This document shows positions 13,218 through 43,381 of a stretch of 64,000 nucleotides of DNA, piece by piece; position 1 is the stretch's first letter, and every line of letters begins with the position of its first letter. Under the pieces are notes generated by a model. The model was given only the letters and a program-made list of their open reading frames with translations. It did not search any database and had not been told where the DNA came from. Origin of the DNA: Lactiplantibacillus daoliensis. Its GTDB lineage: Bacteria; Bacillota; Bacilli; Lactobacillales; Lactobacillaceae. Both the position numbers and the translations under genes were made by a program. The stretch is taken from contig NZ_BJDH01000006.1 in the NCBI RefSeq assembly GCF_005405005.1, positions 1 to 64,000 of the forward strand. Reading direction: 5' to 3'.

Positions 13218-13266
13218 AAAAACCGTTATTTTCAGTCAAATTGACATGAAAATAACGATTTTTTTA
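13218..13266. terminator. Bidirectional terminator after glycerate kinase
   Basis: A perfect 11-bp stem (13224-13234 with 13247-13257) is bordered by A on one side and seven T on the other. It can serve the kinase gene and the convergent hydrolase gene, whose stop codon overlaps it. Confidence 0.9.
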
Positions 13267-14202
13267 ATCAGTTAAATAATGGTCTAAAAAGGCCGAAACG
13301 TGTTTTTCGTATTCTGCTGGGCCAATCCAAAAGCTTTCGGCGTGAGTTGCATTCGGTACCTGCCACATGGATTTTTGTCCGCCAGCTGCTTGATAGTTCT
13401 TTTTGAGCATCCAGCTGGGAACGTAGACGTCCTTCTCGCCGTGGATAAAGAAAATCGGCAGTTTGTTGTGTCGTAACTGTTCAACGGAACTGACGTCACT
13501 CAAAAAATAGCCCATGCGATGCCGATTAATAAAGCTTACGATTGGCACAAATGGGAATTTTGGCAAATGGAATTGGCGTTTGAGCAAGTAAGCCAGTTCT
13601 TCTTCGACACTCGTGTAACCGCAGTCGGCAATAATGGCCTTAACTTGCGGTGGCAGGACTTCACCACTCATCATTTCAACCGTGGCACCACCCATGCTTA
13701 CGCCAAATAAGACGATTTCTGCTTGTACCCCAGTTTGATCAATGACTTCATCGACCCAGCCGAGATAGTCGCGCCGATCTTGCCACCCAAAGCTGATGTA
13801 TTTCCCAGCACTTTGACCATGTCCGCGATCATCGGGCAGGAGGACGTTATAACCCATGTTATGGAACATATAAGCATAGTTAGCCATTGTTTCACCGTCA
13901 CCTTTATAACCATGAGAAATGATGACAGTGCGGCGACTGGTATTCTTAGCTGGCACGTATTTTGCCACGAGGTGGTTGGCTTCGTCGTTAATATTTAACT
14001 GCCAGTCTTGAGTGGGCTGGCGATGTAACCAATTGACGTATGACCAATAGGCATCGGCGTATTTTTGTTTGTCTGCCGAGGTTTCTGGAACGTAATCGAC
14101 ACGTTTGAAAGCAAAGTTATATAACTTTTCACTTGCAATTAATGTTGCTGAAAATAAGGCGATGGGGGTCCCTAAAGCGGCAATCCAACTCCGTTTTTTC
14201 AT
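13264..14202 (-). CDS. Alpha/beta hydrolase with N-terminal membrane segment
   Basis: The 312-residue protein has an alpha/beta hydrolase fold with nucleophile Ser169 in GVSMGG, Asp258 in HGEKD and His287 in ATHAES, a complete catalytic triad. An oxyanion motif HGYKGDG lies near residue 97. Residues 8-24 are hydrophobic after a basic start, so it is probably membrane-anchored or exported. It resembles the YqkD/BEM46-like hydrolases; the substrate is unknown. AAGGAG lies 7-8 bases before the ATG. Confidence 0.85.
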   Translation of the reverse strand: MKKRSWIAALGTPIALFSATLIASEKLYNFAFKRVDYVPETSADKQKYADAYWSYVNWLHRQPTQDWQLNINDEANHLVAKYVPAKNTSRRTVIISHGYKGDGETMANYAYMFHNMGYNVLLPDDRGHGQSAGKYISFGWQDRRDYLGWVDEVIDQTGVQAEIVLFGVSMGGATVEMMSGEVLPPQVKAIIADCGYTSVEEELAYLLKRQFHLPKFPFVPIVSFINRHRMGYFLSDVSSVEQLRHNKLPIFFIHGEKDVYVPSWMLKKNYQAAGGQKSMWQVPNATHAESFWIGPAEYEKHVSAFLDHYLTD

Positions 14203-14329: not shown

Positions 14330-14467
14330 AAAAAACCATCGCTTTACGCGACGGCAAAAGGAGTAGTTCGTTTCGTTAGGTTTGAATGCCCAGCGAGACT
14401 TTTTTCATTAACTTTGGAGGAGTAAATGAAAAAGATATGGTGACTGAGTGACAAGTTCAATCACCAT
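14330..14467 (-). ncRNA. Predicted C-rich small RNA, copy 1
   Basis: This is a minus-strand transcript of about 138 bases. A -10 box TATACT (14479-14474) has TTACCT 17 bases upstream. The RNA starts with a stem ATGGTGA/TCACCAT, then a hairpin (about 14402-14433) whose loop exposes CTCCTCC, a linker CTACTCCT, and a terminator stem (14336-14342 with 14348-14354) with six T. CTCCTCC and CTACTCCT are complementary to Shine-Dalgarno sequences. There is no coding frame. The terminator loop here is GTAAA, unlike copies 2-4. The transcript itself is inferred. Confidence 0.72.
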
Positions 14468-14593
14468 AACAATAGTATACCCGTTTGATAGTTAAAAGGT
14501 AAGCGTCGTGACTGCTTAGTTTAGTGAGCGTTCATAAACCTTGCATGCTTAGGCAATGTGCATGTTCACCCCAGGCCCTCGTAAGCTGGTAAT

Positions 14594-14746
14594 AAAAACC
14601 ACCGTATCGGGGAATACGGTGGAAAAAGGAGTAGGGCAGACATGCGATGGGGAGTCGCATGTCATTATGAATTTCATTACTTTGGAGGAGTAAATGAAAA
14701 ATTTTAGGTTGTTTTATAGCTCATTGAGGTGTTCCTCAATTGCTAT
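14594..14746 (-). ncRNA. Predicted C-rich small RNA, copy 2
   Basis: This is a minus-strand transcript of about 153 bases with -10 TATGAT (14758-14753) and the upstream element TTCTTCA (plus-strand TGAAGAA at 14770-14776). In order it forms a 5' stem around AACA, a hairpin (14672-14698) with CTCCTCC exposed, a perfect 9-bp hairpin (14639-14663) with loop CTCCCCA, a linker CTACTCCT, and a terminator hairpin (14599-14622) with loop TCCCCG and a T tail. It is the most complete family member. Confidence 0.8.
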
Positions 14747-14876
14747 GATGTAATCATAGCCGGACCGTGTGAAGAATATGTGACTGAATCCGTTCAATGT
14801 TGTGAAAAATTCACTAAGCCTTTATTAAGGCCTTAATCATTGTTATGACGGCTATTGAGATATGATTTTGTTCAAT

Positions 14877-15019
14877 AAAAAAACCATCGTATCGGGGAAA
14901 TACGGTGGTAAAAAAGGAAGTAAATTAAGTTAGGTTGTCTTGACATAAATTCATTACTTGGAGTGGTAATTGAATTAAGTTAGTTGTCGTTAAGGAATGG
15001 GGAGTTCCTTAATGACTAT
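14877..15019 (-). ncRNA. Predicted C-rich small RNA, copy 3
   Basis: This is a minus-strand transcript of about 143 bases with -10 TATACT (15031-15026) and TTCTTCA exactly 11 bases farther upstream. It forms a first hairpin (14986-15016) with loop CTCCCCA, a second (14949-14975) with CACTCCAA in the loop, a linker with ACTTCCT, and a terminator stem (14884-14892 with 14900-14908) with TTCCCCG loop and seven T. The promoter and first hairpin closely match copy 4. Confidence 0.8.
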
Positions 15020-15186
15020 GAACACAGTATAACGGGGAGTCTTGAAGAAAGTATGACACCAGAAAGCTGAAACTGTGATCCTTGATTGAAAGAAATTAGG
15101 CTTGGGGGCAGGAGTAGGATGAGAAGGCACAATTTTAATAAGCAAACCGTGCGCAGTCACTCAGCACGTTCTTACAGACTGGCAAT

Positions 15187-15325
15187 AAAAAACCACCGTA
15201 TCGGGGAATACGGTGGAAAAGGGAAGAAAAGTAGGTTGTATACATATGAATTCATCACTCGGGGAAGTAATTGAATTTTAAGTTTAGTCGGTCGTTAAGA
15301 AACGGGGAATCTCTTAATTGACTAT
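15187..15325 (-). ncRNA. Predicted C-rich small RNA, copy 4
   Basis: This is a minus-strand transcript of about 139 bases with -10 TATACT (15337-15332) and TTCTTCA at the same 11-base spacing. It forms a hairpin (15291-15322) with loop TTCCCCG, a hairpin (15249-15276) with loop TCCCCG, a pyrimidine linker CTTCCC, and a terminator stem (15193-15201 with 15208-15216) with TCCCCG loop and six T. A 62-residue frame on the plus strand crosses it and is rejected. Confidence 0.8.
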
Positions 15326-15547
15326 GAACATAGTATAACGGCGGGTGATGAAGAATTTGTGATGTCAACGTACTAAAGTCGTGACTTTGCATTGAAAAAT
15401 TGACTGTTTTTACAAAGTTTATAACTAATTGAGGTCAGATGTTTTGTTATGATAACTCCTAAACATTGTGATAACGGGCTTTTGGCTGGATTGAAAGTGG
15501 CGACATGCTATAATTGCTGGCAAAACAACTTGAAAGTGTGACTAAAA

Positions 15548-16387
15548 ATGAGCATCAAAATCGTAACAGATTCTTCGGTCCAGTTAACTGCTGCCGAAAT
15601 TGAACAATATGATATTCAAATCGTGCCCCTGCTAGTCGGTTTTGGTGGCGAATTGGTCCAAGATAATACCATTTCACGTGAAGACTTTAATCGTCAAATG
15701 GCGGCCAGCGACCTATTACCGACGACGAGTCAGCCGCCAATTGGATCGTTCGTAACACTTTACGACGAGTTGACGGCAGATGGTAGTCAGGTTTTATCAC
15801 TACATATTACGGAAACTTTGAGTGGGACTGTTAATGCGGCTCGCCAGGCAGCACAACTGGCGACAGGCGATGTGACAGTGGTAGACTCGCAGTCGGCGGA
15901 TCGTGGGATGGCTTTTCAAGTCCTGACGGCTGCCCGGATGGCTCATGCTGGGGCTGATTTGGCGACGATTTTAGCAAAGATCGCGGTTATTCGGCGTCAA
16001 ACCCATGTTTATTTGTTTGTGGATACTCTCGACAACTTGGTTAAAGGTGGCCGGGTGCCTAAAATTGCCGGTGTGGTGACTAATTTAATAAAATTGAAGT
16101 TTGTTTTTGAGCTTATGGATGGCAAGCTCAAATTGTATACGCGTGGTCGCGGAAAAAAAGCTTTGATTAAAGCACAGACTCAAATTCTGGATGACTTGGC
16201 AGATGTGACCCGGGTTGAAGCTGCTGGTATCTCGTATGTTGGTGAGGATGCGGTTGCGGCTGCTCCTCGTGATTTAATGATGAAAGTCGCCCCCGAGACA
16301 GATTTGTTGGTTGACCGCACGAGTCCAATTATTGCGACACATACTGGTATCGGAGCATACGCTTTAATGCTTTATGTCGTAGATTGA
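15548..16387 (+). CDS. DegV-family fatty-acid-binding protein
   Basis: The 279-residue protein shows the DegV opening KIVTDSSVQLT and the conserved PTTSQPPIGSF and SLHITETLSGT segments that line the lipid pocket. Some DegV proteins (FakB) present fatty acids to the kinase FakA for phosphorylation. Whether this one does is inference. An extended -10 TGCTATAAT (15507-15515) gives a short leader. The ribosome site is weak. The gene appears monocistronic. Confidence 0.9.
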   Translation: MSIKIVTDSSVQLTAAEIEQYDIQIVPLLVGFGGELVQDNTISREDFNRQMAASDLLPTTSQPPIGSFVTLYDELTADGSQVLSLHITETLSGTVNAARQAAQLATGDVTVVDSQSADRGMAFQVLTAARMAHAGADLATILAKIAVIRRQTHVYLFVDTLDNLVKGGRVPKIAGVVTNLIKLKFVFELMDGKLKLYTRGRGKKALIKAQTQILDDLADVTRVEAAGISYVGEDAVAAAPRDLMMKVAPETDLLVDRTSPIIATHTGIGAYALMLYVVD

Positions 16388-16430
16388 AAACTTATTGAAC
16401 AAAATACTATCATTTTGTCCTTTAGCTTGC

Positions 16431-16532
16431 TATAATTAAAACAACATATATTTAGAGCCGTGTTGGTGCACTGTTCTGAGCCTAACCACCATTTTAATGA
16501 TGACTAGACCCGGATGGGTGCGCTATTTTTTT
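16431..16532 (+). promoter_or_regulatory. Leader with terminator-like end upstream of lrgB
   Basis: An extended -10 TGCTATAAT (16428-16436) is followed by about 90 structured bases that end in seven T (16526-16532), only 36 bases before lrgB. Possible pairings include GTTGG with CCTAAC and ACCC with GGGT inside TAG/CTA. Promoter, structured RNA, T run and gene in this order suggest transcription attenuation or a riboswitch. I could not assign it to a known class. Confidence 0.5.
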
Positions 16533-16567
16533 GACACTTTTTCCCTCAAAAGAAAGTAGGAAATTTT

Positions 16568-17296
16568 TTGGCATATCTTCTCAATAATCCATTTTTTGGT
16601 ATCGGGCTAACCGTGCTGGTTTATGGGATTGGCGAGTATTTTTATCATAAGACGAATCGTTTTGTATTATTCCAACCGCTGTTTTTTGGAATGTTGCTTG
16701 GGATTGGTTTACTGGTATTGATTGCGTCGGCCCTCAAAGCACCGTTGCACAAAGTTTATCAAGCCTATCAGATTGGTGGCGACTGGTTATTCTGGTTCGT
16801 TGCTCCGGCGACCGTTTCTTTTGCAGTCCCACTGTACAAACGAAATGATATTTTTAGAAAACACTGGGATGTCATTTTGGTGGCGTTGTTCCTAGGACTA
16901 TTATTATCACTGTTTGGAATTTACGGTGTCTCCCGCTTGATGGGGCTTACGGATGCTGCTTTGGGCGCCATGCTAGTCCAAGCGGCGACAACGGCGATTG
17001 CGTTACCAGTCGCAGAGTCAGTTGGTGGTGATCAAGCGATTGCGGCCTTTGCGGTAATTTTAAATTCAGTCTTGATTTATGCACTTGGCGACCATTTTAT
17101 TCGCTGGTTCAAGTTGCACAAAAATCCGTTAGGTGCGGGACTAGGCTTCGGAATTGCCGGGAATGCTGTGGGTGCGACCAAGGCAATTGAGGTGAGTGAA
17201 GCGGCCGGTGCGACCGGTGCAATTTCTTTCGTGATTGCGGGAATCTTGGTGAATTTCATGGTTCCAAGTTTCGCACATCTAGTTGGTTTAGGTTAG
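16568..17296 (+). CDS. lrgB: LrgB-family membrane protein
   Basis: The 242-residue polytopic protein belongs to the LrgB/CidB/YohK family, partner of the holin-like LrgA. In other Firmicutes the pair affects autolysis and pyruvate or glycolate export. The C-terminal glycine-rich segment LGFGIAGNAVGATKAIE with AGATGAISF is characteristic. The start is TTG with AGGA 6 bases upstream. Order is lrgB then lrgA, the reverse of the usual Staphylococcus and Bacillus arrangement. It is preceded by a candidate attenuator leader. Confidence 0.9.
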   Translation: MAYLLNNPFFGIGLTVLVYGIGEYFYHKTNRFVLFQPLFFGMLLGIGLLVLIASALKAPLHKVYQAYQIGGDWLFWFVAPATVSFAVPLYKRNDIFRKHWDVILVALFLGLLLSLFGIYGVSRLMGLTDAALGAMLVQAATTAIALPVAESVGGDQAIAAFAVILNSVLIYALGDHFIRWFKLHKNPLGAGLGFGIAGNAVGATKAIEVSEAAGATGAISFVIAGILVNFMVPSFAHLVGLG

Positions 17297-17305
17297 GAGG
17301 CGCGT

Positions 17306-17725
17306 ATGAAAAAAACAAAGTTTATTAAGCAAATTATGATCTATGGCGTGATTCTGCTGGTCAGTAGTTTGATCTCTGAGTTGGTTAATCAAATTTGGCC
17401 GGGCTTTCCGATGCCACCAGCCTTGATTGGGATGATTATGCTATATCTTTTGCTAACGTTGAAAATTGTGAAGTTGGAACAAGTTGAAGGCGTCAGCAAC
17501 TTCTTTGTTCAAATTATTAGCCTGATTTTTATTCCATCTGGTGTGGCATTGGTAACGAAGTTAGATGTGTTAAAAGCAGAAGGGGTACAGATTATTATCG
17601 TGGTCGTTGTATCAACGCTGATGTTGTTACTTTTCACTGCAGGTATTTCTTGGCTTCTCATTAAAGTTAAGGAATATGTCGTCGCGCGTCGTCAACAAAG
17701 TTCAATCGAAGTCGAGGAGGATTAA
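17306..17725 (+). CDS. lrgA: LrgA/CidA holin-like protein
   Basis: The 139-residue protein has four hydrophobic helices and the conserved motif of the CidA/LrgA family (PGFPMPPALIGMIMLYLLL, then FIPSGVAL near the third helix). AGGAGG lies 5 bases before the ATG, and the gene follows lrgB by 9 bases, so both are translated from one message. With LrgB it likely forms a membrane channel or transporter complex; the cargo is uncertain. The charged C-terminal tail ends in EVEED. Confidence 0.9.
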   Translation: MKKTKFIKQIMIYGVILLVSSLISELVNQIWPGFPMPPALIGMIMLYLLLTLKIVKLEQVEGVSNFFVQIISLIFIPSGVALVTKLDVLKAEGVQIIIVVVVSTLMLLLFTAGISWLLIKVKEYVVARRQQSSIEVEED

Positions 17726-17861
17726 TAACCTGTTATTAGGTCCGGGTGGTGTTGGATTTACCGTTTTGGTAGATCAAGCACCAGTCGGATTTAATTGTTT
17801 TTGGGGTTGTTATTTTGATAGTCGAAACGTGTTCGGCCAACCTGAGAGTTCGGCTTGCTAC

Positions 17862-17904
17862 GCACAGTCAACCACTCGGAAAATCGTCGAGTAATTGACT
17901 GTGC
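17862..17904. other. Hairpin downstream of lrgA
   Basis: A 10-bp perfect stem (17862-17871 with 17895-17904) with an inner 5-bp stem (17874-17878 with 17888-17892) lies in the gene-free stretch after lrgA. It has no T tract, so it is a structure of unknown role. It may slow decay of the lrgBA message. Confidence 0.5.
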
Positions 17905-17948
17905 TAGGCAATGCTCACTCTCAACCTGGTTGACCTCGCACTCTGCAC

Positions 17949-18153
17949 AAAAAAAGCCACTACATCATGGATGCAGTGGTCAAGGAGTAGGAAACATCAA
18001 AGTGGGGGCTTTGATGAACCCCATTCATAAGACTTGGGGGAGTCTATGAATGAAAGTGATTATTAATCGGCATTATGGCAGCAACACCGATTACAATCTT
18101 AAAACTAAAGAATATTAATGATCGATAGTCAGTTGATCACTTTCTATCAATCT
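17949..18153 (-). ncRNA. Predicted C-rich small RNA, copy 5
   Basis: A minus-strand promoter TTGCAG-17-TATAAT (18188-18183 and 18165-18160) would give an RNA of about 205 bases. The 3' half has the family design: a hairpin (18023-18051) with loop CCCCCA, a perfect 8-bp hairpin (17995-18016) with loop CCCCCA, a linker CCTACTCCT, and a terminator stem (17956-17980) with seven T. The 5' half is longer than in copies 1-4 and lacks TTCTTCA. Its own promoter suggests separate control. Confidence 0.75.
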
Positions 18154-18205
18154 GCGACTATTATAATTGCAAACGCTACCGGCTGCAACTAATTGCGCTG
18201 GTAGA

Positions 18206-39753: not shown

Positions 39754-40515
39754 TTATTGATTGGCTTTATCAGAAATTGCTGTAAATGTCATGGCGGCTA
39801 AGAAATCCGCAATTCGTTGAGTCGGTTGCTTGAAGAATTCAGCGGGGGTACCATCGAATAAAATCTTGCCGTTTTCCACGAATAAGATTTTATCGGCGAC
39901 CGCACGCGCAAATTCCAAATTATGCGTCACGATGATCATCGAATCTTTTTCTTGTGCGAGTTCCAATAGGACGCGCAGGACCCCGGCTTCAAGCTCAGGA
40001 TCGAGGGCACTGGTTGGTTCATCAAGTAGGATATATTCGGGATTCATCGCAAGTGACCGTGCAATCGCGACTCGTTGTTGTTGTCCACCTGAAAGTTGAC
40101 TTGGATAAGCATCTGCTTTATCCGCTAAGCCGACTTTATCAAGTAAGTTGAGAGCGTTCTTTTTAGCGTCCGCAGTGGATTGCTTCAAGACTTGGATTGG
40201 GCCTTCCATCACATTTTTGACAACGGTTAGATGTGGGAAGAGATTGTAGCCTTGAAAAACCATCCCGGTCTTACGCCGCAACGTTAAGATGGTTTTATTG
40301 GATAAGGGTTTGGCAAAATCAATCGTCAAATCGTTAAAATGATATTGCCCATTTTCAGGACGTTCTAACAAGTTTAATGAACGTAAGAGCGTTGATTTTC
40401 CGGAACCAGAAGGTCCAACAATGACGGTCGTTTGGTGTTCTTTAAATTCAGTATTAATGTCAATCAAGGCTGGATGGTCACCAAACGTTTTATTGACGTG
40501 TTCAAATTTTATCAA
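39754..40515 (-). CDS. Amino acid ABC importer, ATPase
   Basis: The 253-residue ATPase has Walker A GPSGSGKST, Q-loop FQGYNLFPHL, signature LSGGQQQRVAIARSLA and Walker B YILLDEPTSALD, the pattern of polar amino acid importers (GlnQ/TcyC group). The start is TTG with AGGAGG 7 bases upstream. It is the last gene of a four-gene T-box-controlled operon, 11 bases after the permease gene. Confidence 0.92.
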   Translation of the reverse strand: MIKFEHVNKTFGDHPALIDINTEFKEHQTTVIVGPSGSGKSTLLRSLNLLERPENGQYHFNDLTIDFAKPLSNKTILTLRRKTGMVFQGYNLFPHLTVVKNVMEGPIQVLKQSTADAKKNALNLLDKVGLADKADAYPSQLSGGQQQRVAIARSLAMNPEYILLDEPTSALDPELEAGVLRVLLELAQEKDSMIIVTHNLEFARAVADKILFVENGKILFDGTPAEFFKQPTQRIADFLAAMTFTAISDKANQ

Positions 40516-43113: not shown

Positions 43114-43381
43114 AAAAAAATTGCATTTATCCTTTAGTAAAAAGGACGAATGCAATCGCGGTACCACCTTTGTTTCTGAATTATTCACATAATCCAGCTC
43201 CATGAGTTAAGTTAACTCGAGTACGGTAACGGGTACTGAGCGTTTACGGTTTGCCTGATGTTCGCCGTAACCATTTAGAGACCATCTTCAGTTTTGTTTT
43301 CAGATTGCCTTGCACCCGTACTGGCAACTCTCTTAGCAGAAAACGTAACTTACTCATCTCATCCGGACGTTTCGTTTATTT
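43114..43381 (-). promoter_or_regulatory. T-box leader of the amino acid importer operon
   Basis: The minus strand shows TTGACA-17-TAAACT (43416-43411, 43393-43388), a stem I with GAGTA and AGAGAG elements, the T-box AAGGTGGTACCGCG (43170-43157), and a terminator (ATTGCATT with AATGCAAT, seven T at 43120-43114). Uncharged tRNA should favour readthrough. In stem I the codon after TGAAG reads ATG (43285-43283), suggesting Met. If the frame is shifted by one, GAT (Asp) would be read. The T-box itself is certain, the specifier less so. Confidence 0.9.

Follow-up and report, generated by a model that had tools for sequence, protein, structure and literature searches.

The first 64,000 nucleotides of contig NZ_BJDH01000006.1 of Lactiplantibacillus daoliensis (hereafter the window, which is the start of contig C6 in a 2.63-Mb genome) contain five minus-strand units, u1 to u5, that are conserved, structured RNAs and siblings of one another, as an earlier note on this DNA had proposed. 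Judging from sequence, we consider it probable that they are genes of trans-acting small RNAs (sRNAs) that would block ribosome sites, with u2, u3, u4 and two further members from elsewhere in the genome controlled by a PieR-like OmpR-family regulator under envelope or secretion stress. The case is carried by conserved structures that covary, by promoters and terminators that are likewise conserved, by a common promoter element and by the co-occurrence of that element with pieR, all established computationally. The observation in the earlier note is thereby confirmed and its interpretation of the units as translational regulators, which they may well be, is partly supported. All five units were recovered where the note had placed them, with -10 boxes, hairpins and terminators:

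14330 to 14467, minus strand: u1, approximately 138 nt, with a 5' hairpin, a core hairpin UUUUUCAUUUACUCCUCCAAAGUUAAUGAAAAA (~14401 to 14433), the linker CUACUCCU and a terminator (14335 to 14355); -10 box TATACT at 14474 to 14479, without the PieR-type element.
14590 to 14746, minus strand: u2, with a 5' hairpin, a core hairpin with ACUCCUCC loop (~14672 to 14699), an extra hairpin with CUCCCCA loop (14639 to 14663), the CUACUCCU linker and a terminator (14599 to 14622) with UUCCCC loop.
14753 to 14784, minus strand: u2 promoter, with the direct repeat TCACATATTCTTCACA and -10 box TATGAT at 14753 to 14758.
14875 to 15019, minus strand: u3, with a 5' hairpin with CUCCCCA loop (14990 to 15012), a core hairpin (~14948 to 14976) and a terminator (~14884 to 14908) with UUUCCCCG loop.
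15026 to 15057, minus strand: u3 promoter, with the repeat in imperfect form, TCATACTTTCTTCAAG (one mismatch to the pattern), and -10 box TATACT at 15026 to 15031.
15185 to 15325, minus strand: u4, with a 5' hairpin with UCCCC loop (15295 to 15317), a core hairpin with CCCC loop (~15249 to 15277) and a terminator (15193 to 15216) with UUCCCC loop.
15332 to 15363, minus strand: u4 promoter, with TCACAAATTCTTCATC, an imperfect copy of the repeat, and -10 box TATACT at 15332 to 15337.
17949 to 18153, minus strand: u5, with hairpins including a CUCCCCC loop (~18022 to 18052) and a CCCCCA loop (17995 to 18016), a CUACUCC linker and a terminator (17957 to 17979).
18160 to 18188, minus strand: u5 promoter of sigma-70 type, with TTGCAG (18183 to 18188), a spacer of 17 nt and TATAAT (18160 to 18165).

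Seven hairpins with a stem of at least 7 and a CTCC or CCCC loop were identified on the minus strand of the region and none on its plus strand, with nine on both strands of the remainder of the window. As 200 first-order Markov shuffles of the region produced a mean of 0.19 such hairpins (maximum 2), the observed number is ~37 times expectation. As a correction to the earlier note, the first-hairpin and terminator loops of u1 are not pyrimidine-rich. Four C-rich sites are found in u2, three in each of u3, u4 and u5, and two in u1, the terminator-loop site being limited to u2, u3 and u4; u1 and u5 are siblings of the others via their C-rich sites, and u1 also via its core. Minus-strand terminators were called for u1, u2, u4 and u5, and that of u3 has one mismatch and is visible in the fold.

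Eleven syntenic relatives, all Lactiplantibacillus (one a metagenome-assembled genome labelled uncultured Lactobacillus) and with DegV proteins of 75 to 92% identity, were compared. A u3/u4-type unit adjoins degV in 11/11 loci, the blastn match in one of them (L019) spanning the 3' part only, and u5 was found in all 10 loci reaching its place. Each of u1 and u2 is present in 4/11 fetched stretches (u1 orthologs in L009, L010, L015 and L016). Copy number varies, with two u3/u4-type copies in the fetched stretch of L. daowaiensis and four in L. fabifermentans, which also carries u1 and u2. Compensatory stem changes in relatives, on which the earlier note had staked its claim beforehand, were found for the u3/u4 type and for u5. 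In the u3/u4 type (19 RNAs), six of 12 pairs changed on both sides and 98.2% of cells are paired, with 18 both-side-changed cells versus 4.5 in shuffles and a covariation score reached by 0/500 shuffles; of the five measures, that for further pair types was matched in 68/500 shuffles. This consensus takes in the first and last hairpins only, the middle hairpin not being recovered from the gapped alignment, and five of the six covarying pairs belong to the stem of the terminator, which retains its UCCCCG loop in 18/19 RNAs. For u5 (11 RNAs), 6/58 pairs changed on both sides, 98.9% of cells are paired and the score was again reached by 0/500 shuffles. The compensatory changes are confined to two hairpins that have no C-rich loop, and the C-rich hairpins are nearly unvarying. 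The core hairpin and linker of u2 and of u6, one of the further members, are nearly invariant within the genus.

The genome holds at least seven members rather than the five of the earlier note, the additional ones being the following:

Contig C5, ~39859 to 39985: u6, found by searching the genome for the direct repeat of u2.
Contig C8, ~123826 to 124061 (L106), plus strand: u7, found via the antisense of the core.

The former is present in 21/21 genomes of the genus at 91 to 100% identity. The latter sRNA is longer, contains several C-rich stretches, follows the common element and has relatives in L060 and L063. This element, a TTCAYA-N5-TTCAYA-like direct repeat nine bases upstream of the -10 box, is common to u2, u3, u4, u6 and u7, and with the -10 spacing built in, these are the only five places in the genome with zero or one mismatch; a further 12 places have two mismatches and resemble background (eight in the reversed control). 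Using the pattern TCAYANNWTCTTCA-N11-TATDMT, we found 53 matches across 21/21 genomes of the genus (0 with the reversed pattern), with a match ending in TATGAT, as in u2, read from the match list in 21/21. The same pattern occurs in 58/301 genomes and 15/40 genera of the family, and a stricter form in 54/395 genomes and 22/80 genera of the order Lactobacillales, the reversed pattern giving one match at each level. A strict terminator preceded by a C-rich motif lies downstream of 69/82 distinct element sites versus 117/2370 random positions (genus 33/35, rest of family 12/17, rest of order 24/30), and an open reading frame (ORF) of at least 80 amino acids starting within 120 nt downstream was seen at 8/82 element sites versus 728/2370 random positions; these counts cover distinct 150-nt sites with at least 280 nt downstream, with repeats and shorter sites left out. 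Inspection by eye, covering 17 of 50 matches outside the genus and 30 of 39 outside the family, indicated a C-rich RNA with terminator at 17/17 family-level and 29/30 order-level sites (12 and 24 with the strict script). Outside the family these RNAs often carry a core CUUUACUCCUCCAAAGUAAAG and a ACUCCUUU linker. Close pairs are also seen in other genomes; in G051, for instance, 484 bases separate two promoter matches.

The promoter of u5 is conserved in its own right, with TTGCAG and the -10 box kept in 10/10 loci holding u5. The sequence CAATTAGTTGCAG before u5 (window 18160 to 18200) is likewise kept in 10/10 loci and includes a small inverted repeat, CAA-TTAG-TTG, that is perhaps the operator of another regulator. 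As the promoters of u1 and u5 differ from the rest, these two RNAs may answer to other signals.

An OmpR-family response regulator is predicted to bind the repeat just upstream of the -10 box and so to switch on u2, u3, u4, u6 and u7 jointly. Six such regulators are encoded in the genome, of which the product of L099 is closest to PieR (NF041209; 297.5 bits, against 216 for the next family). Together with the findings that follow, this makes the PieR-like member of the PieRS two-component system the best candidate. PieR was detected at E <= 1e-65 in 301/395 genomes of the order (31 over the curated cut-off), and 54/54 genomes bearing the element encode it while 0/94 PieR-less genomes bear the element (hypergeometric p 1.2e-7, uncorrected for ancestry; overlap counted by eye). 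In a Listeria-like family whose members pass the PieR cut-off, a TTCAYR-N5-TTCAYA repeat precedes the divergent gene in 25/29 pieR loci (29 scored of 30, one without a recognised pieR start being left out), and this gene is an FtsX/MacB-type ABC permease in both loci tested. The stretches upstream of pieR (L176 to L205) show TTCAYA-like hexamers at 11-bp spacing, with a third half-site visible in several. The one protein-gene exception among 30 order-level sites is htrA in L125 (G524; trypsin and PDZ domains), where the element is directly upstream. Secretion chaperones and an ABC transporter are under PieRS control in Listeria. PieRS is reported to regulate the ABC permease gene lmo1506 (PMC12234432), and htrA is reported to respond to PieRS and LisRK in Listeria and to CiaR in streptococci (PMC12826053). 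In the available text of PMC12234432, 'sRNA' and 'TTCACA' are absent and no PieR DNA-binding motif is given. Overall, a PieR-like regulator likely activates the five element-bearing genes.

Several findings weigh against this assignment. The L099 product falls below the curated PieR cut-off of 450 bits and is a PieR-like relative rather than a curated member; the permease gene beside pieR in the Listeria-like loci is presumed, from gene order, to be lmo1506. In those loci the hexamer at the -10 place, nine bases on, is TAATCT in 22/25, a poor -10 box. The co-occurrence follows ancestry, because 70 of the 94 PieR-less genomes belong to one Streptococcus-like genus (counted by eye), and 247 PieR-positive genomes are without a strict element match. 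Within the L. daoliensis genome, u1 and u5 are without the element, u3 and u4 have a degenerate second hexamer, the htrA promoter is without the element, and the pieR-like gene has only a two-mismatch repeat upstream at the wrong distance from a -10 box. A repeat with two mismatches is present at the VanR-like locus L103 as well. A longer scan placed L101 (3.6) above L099 (-0.1), all regulator loci being far below the true sites (27.5 to 42.3). A site at prsA (L030), a one-mismatch match in reverse orientation, was dropped as evidence because one-mismatch matches are about as frequent as in the control (17 versus 13).

That the same RNAs are activated by another OmpR-family regulator (LisR/ArlR-like L102, L101, PhoP-like L098, WalR L100 or VanR-like L103), with PieR merely co-occurring, we consider unlikely. 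Of the six regulators only the WalR (YycF) name passes a curated cut-off, the other names being our reading, and no regulator gene of the genome, L099 included, has a clear element upstream. The boxes of WalR and PhoP are also 11-bp direct repeats, which speaks for such a regulator; PhoP and WalR were considered on this ground, and no site was found at their own genes. LisR activates LhrC in Listeria (PMC4132741), a further point in favour, whereas the position of the repeat beside pieR in the Listeria-like loci argues for PieR, in a comparison covering pieR loci alone.

We infer that the five units are transcribed as trans-acting sRNAs, activated in part by PieR binding, and that they base-pair with mRNAs and repress them, the whole forming a regulon that answers envelope or secretion stress and includes an RNA arm, a possible counterpart of CiaR-csRNA and LisR-LhrC. 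Each RNA has two to four C-rich sites (hairpin loops, the CUACUCCU-type linker and often the terminator loop) able to pair with Shine-Dalgarno sequences, so that the RNAs would most likely keep ribosomes off sets of mRNAs, a mode of action that is likely by analogy with LhrC and the csRNAs. Pairing energies are better for window ribosome sites than for random sites, only modestly, and duplex energies single out no clear target among the window's 51 genes. Also unfavourable to specific targeting, the 13-nt core antisense GGAGGAGTAAATG is exact only in sRNA genes of the genome. A seed search with GGAGGRGTAAATG returned three exact places in the genome, all sRNA genes, and one one-mismatch place (L107). 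A sequence able to pair with both Shine-Dalgarno and AUG, as in csRNAs, is present in u1 and u2 as CATTTACTCCTCC, to which the genome has no fully matching mRNA.

These results bear on whether the RNAs are general anti-Shine-Dalgarno mimics, acting as decoys or global dampers of translation initiation without specific targets, an explanation we find improbable. C-rich loops resemble the anti-Shine-Dalgarno end of 16S rRNA. The loops differ between paralogs yet remain C-rich, the full core is matched by no mRNA, and the preference for ribosome sites is broad and weak, all as mimics would have it. However, the near-invariance of the u2/u6 core hairpin and linker, similar to the core in other families, exceeds the needs of a mere C-rich run, and the look-alike LhrC has a defined target, lapB (PMC4132741).

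Folding by itself does not settle the strand, because the plus strand folds too, u3 even better there. Folding z-scores (200 dinucleotide shuffles per unit) are -5.7, -6.8, -4.2, -4.7 and -7.3 for u1 to u5 on the minus strand (-7.5 for u5 in a second run) and -3.3, -6.1, -5.5, -0.5 and -3.7 on the plus strand. For u5, comparing G-U with A-C cells gives 43 to 4 in favour of the minus strand, a comparison that does not discriminate for u2, u3/u4 or u6. That the G-rich plus strand instead encodes small peptides or leaders, with Shine-Dalgarno and start sequences (GGAGGAGTAAATGAAA) for tiny ORFs, is highly improbable, since despite a perfect Shine-Dalgarno-ATG arrangement on the plus strands of u1 and u2 and the plus-strand folding, the ORFs have 5 codons in u1 and 19 in u2, no ATG is there in u3/u4, and promoters, terminators and the u5 cell counts point to the minus strand.

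The units u1 to u4 lie in tandem between an alpha/beta hydrolase gene (13264 to 14202, minus strand) and degV (15548 to 16387, plus strand), and u5 is flanked by lrgA and a GNAT acetyltransferase gene (names from Pfam). An interspersed element (TAGGCAATG...CGAGTAATTG...CACGTTTCGACTAT-like) was seen by eye beside sRNA genes, at 17820 to 17950 of the window and between units in L009 and L010; its core has one exact place in the window. At Rfam gathering thresholds the sole match in the window is a T-box leader (43139 to 43374, minus strand, 96.4 bits), far from the units.

The family is real, conserved and wider than first described, a new one of a known kind with a probable regulator that makes it testable, the key steps being feasible in one laboratory strain. 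The hosts include food and probiotic bacteria, for which we found little literature on small-RNA regulation among open-licence papers. The earlier statement that no such family is described in lactobacilli agrees with our searches of open-licence papers, but Rfam holds a distant relative, Ref84 (RF02846), and the family extends far beyond lactobacilli. Ref84 is Enterococcus sRNA 84 (E. faecalis sRNA_109 / E. faecium sRNA_093), of unknown function (PMC7724050). It appears to share with the units a core with UACCAACAACAACC-like 5' part, a U-rich run, an ACUC(CUCC) hairpin, the ACUCCUUU linker and a terminator, as well as, by eye, the loop ACUCCUCCAAAGU, and occurs in 3 to 8 copies, some tandem, in genus g57. 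In a relaxed Rfam scan of 13 loci, Ref84 was matched at the element-driven RNA in five (L139, L140, L143, L147 and L152) at 35.9 to 46.9 bits, below the cut-off. Second Ref84-like copies lie near element-driven ones in non-Lactobacillaceae genomes (L140:1334-1429 and L145:16-121), and L126:2298-2389 (minus strand) matches the NiCo-AnGGAG riboswitch below threshold (40.2 of 64.5 bits, E 1.7e-5). Ref84 was detected at E <= 1e-3 in 99/395 Lactobacillales genomes, over the cut-off in 54, with 0/99 from the family of the window. Of the units, u2 scores 28.9 bits (E 0.92), below the gathering cut-off of 52 bits, and no other is listed; this score alone is no evidence because MicF scores higher at that place (30.9). 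A model, R1, built from other families only (alignment A8, with no Lactobacillaceae and no curated Ref84; alignments A6 and A7 were unused, their terminators being misaligned) ranks u2 first in the 64 kb (24.6 bits, E 0.019), ahead of u1 (19 bits, E 0.26), at modest significance; an unrelated place comes third and u3 fourth, the latter not significant, with u4 and u5 not listed. Ref84 differs in that the Lactobacillus units bear extra C-rich hairpins, and no element was seen in any of the 12 loci, out of the 20 top Ref84 loci, whose upstream sequence was inspected. We take the relationship to Ref84 to be a distant one, suggested by the core and the order of the parts together with the promoter found at many copies, and not membership.

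The units resemble the streptococcal csRNAs in having several paralogs per genome, a hexamer-N5-hexamer repeat that ends about ten bases short of the -10 box, and anti-Shine-Dalgarno/anti-AUG sequences (PMC3091779), and in that htrA is under the same regulator, here a candidate one (PMC12826053). They differ in the repeat, which is NTTAAG-N5-TTTAAG for CiaR versus TTCAYA-N5-TTCAYA-like here, so that the CiaR repeat itself is not found, and in the anti-Shine-Dalgarno stretch, which csRNAs carry in the unpaired regions separating their stem-loops and the present units carry largely in loops. CiaH homologs are reported as not found in Lactobacillus (PMC3091779), and the element is present in 0/70 sampled genomes of the Streptococcus-like genus. 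With LhrC1-5 of Listeria the units share multiple copies, redundant C-rich sites and an envelope-stress two-component system as proposed control; in LhrC these are UCCC sites in a loop, a single strand and the terminator loop, and three were shown to bind lapB mRNA (PMC4132741). The LhrC model (RF00616) scores 23.3 bits here versus a cut-off of 110, the LisR-responsive element lies upstream of -53 in another geometry (PMC4132741), and the strict element is absent from the Listeria-like family f8. The earlier comparison to csRNAs and LhrC stands as regards the geometry of the promoter, copy number and the redundancy of C-rich sites. The PieRS regulon of Listeria monocytogenes offers a similar repeat and spacing before the ABC permease gene beside pieR, and differs in that its named members, in the available part of PMC12234432, are proteins. 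A broader proposal, to which we give slightly less than an even chance, is that in Lactobacillales outside the streptococci PieR belongs to a two-component system sensing secretion or envelope stress whose output is mainly multi-copy C-rich sRNAs, with htrA and the ABC transporter a minority and Ref84 one branch, and that streptococci swapped to CiaR and csRNAs. If true, this would provide a testable function for an orphan Rfam family and a DNA-binding motif for PieR, and would indicate that two-component systems of the Lactobacillales have repeatedly recruited anti-ribosome-site RNAs as their output.

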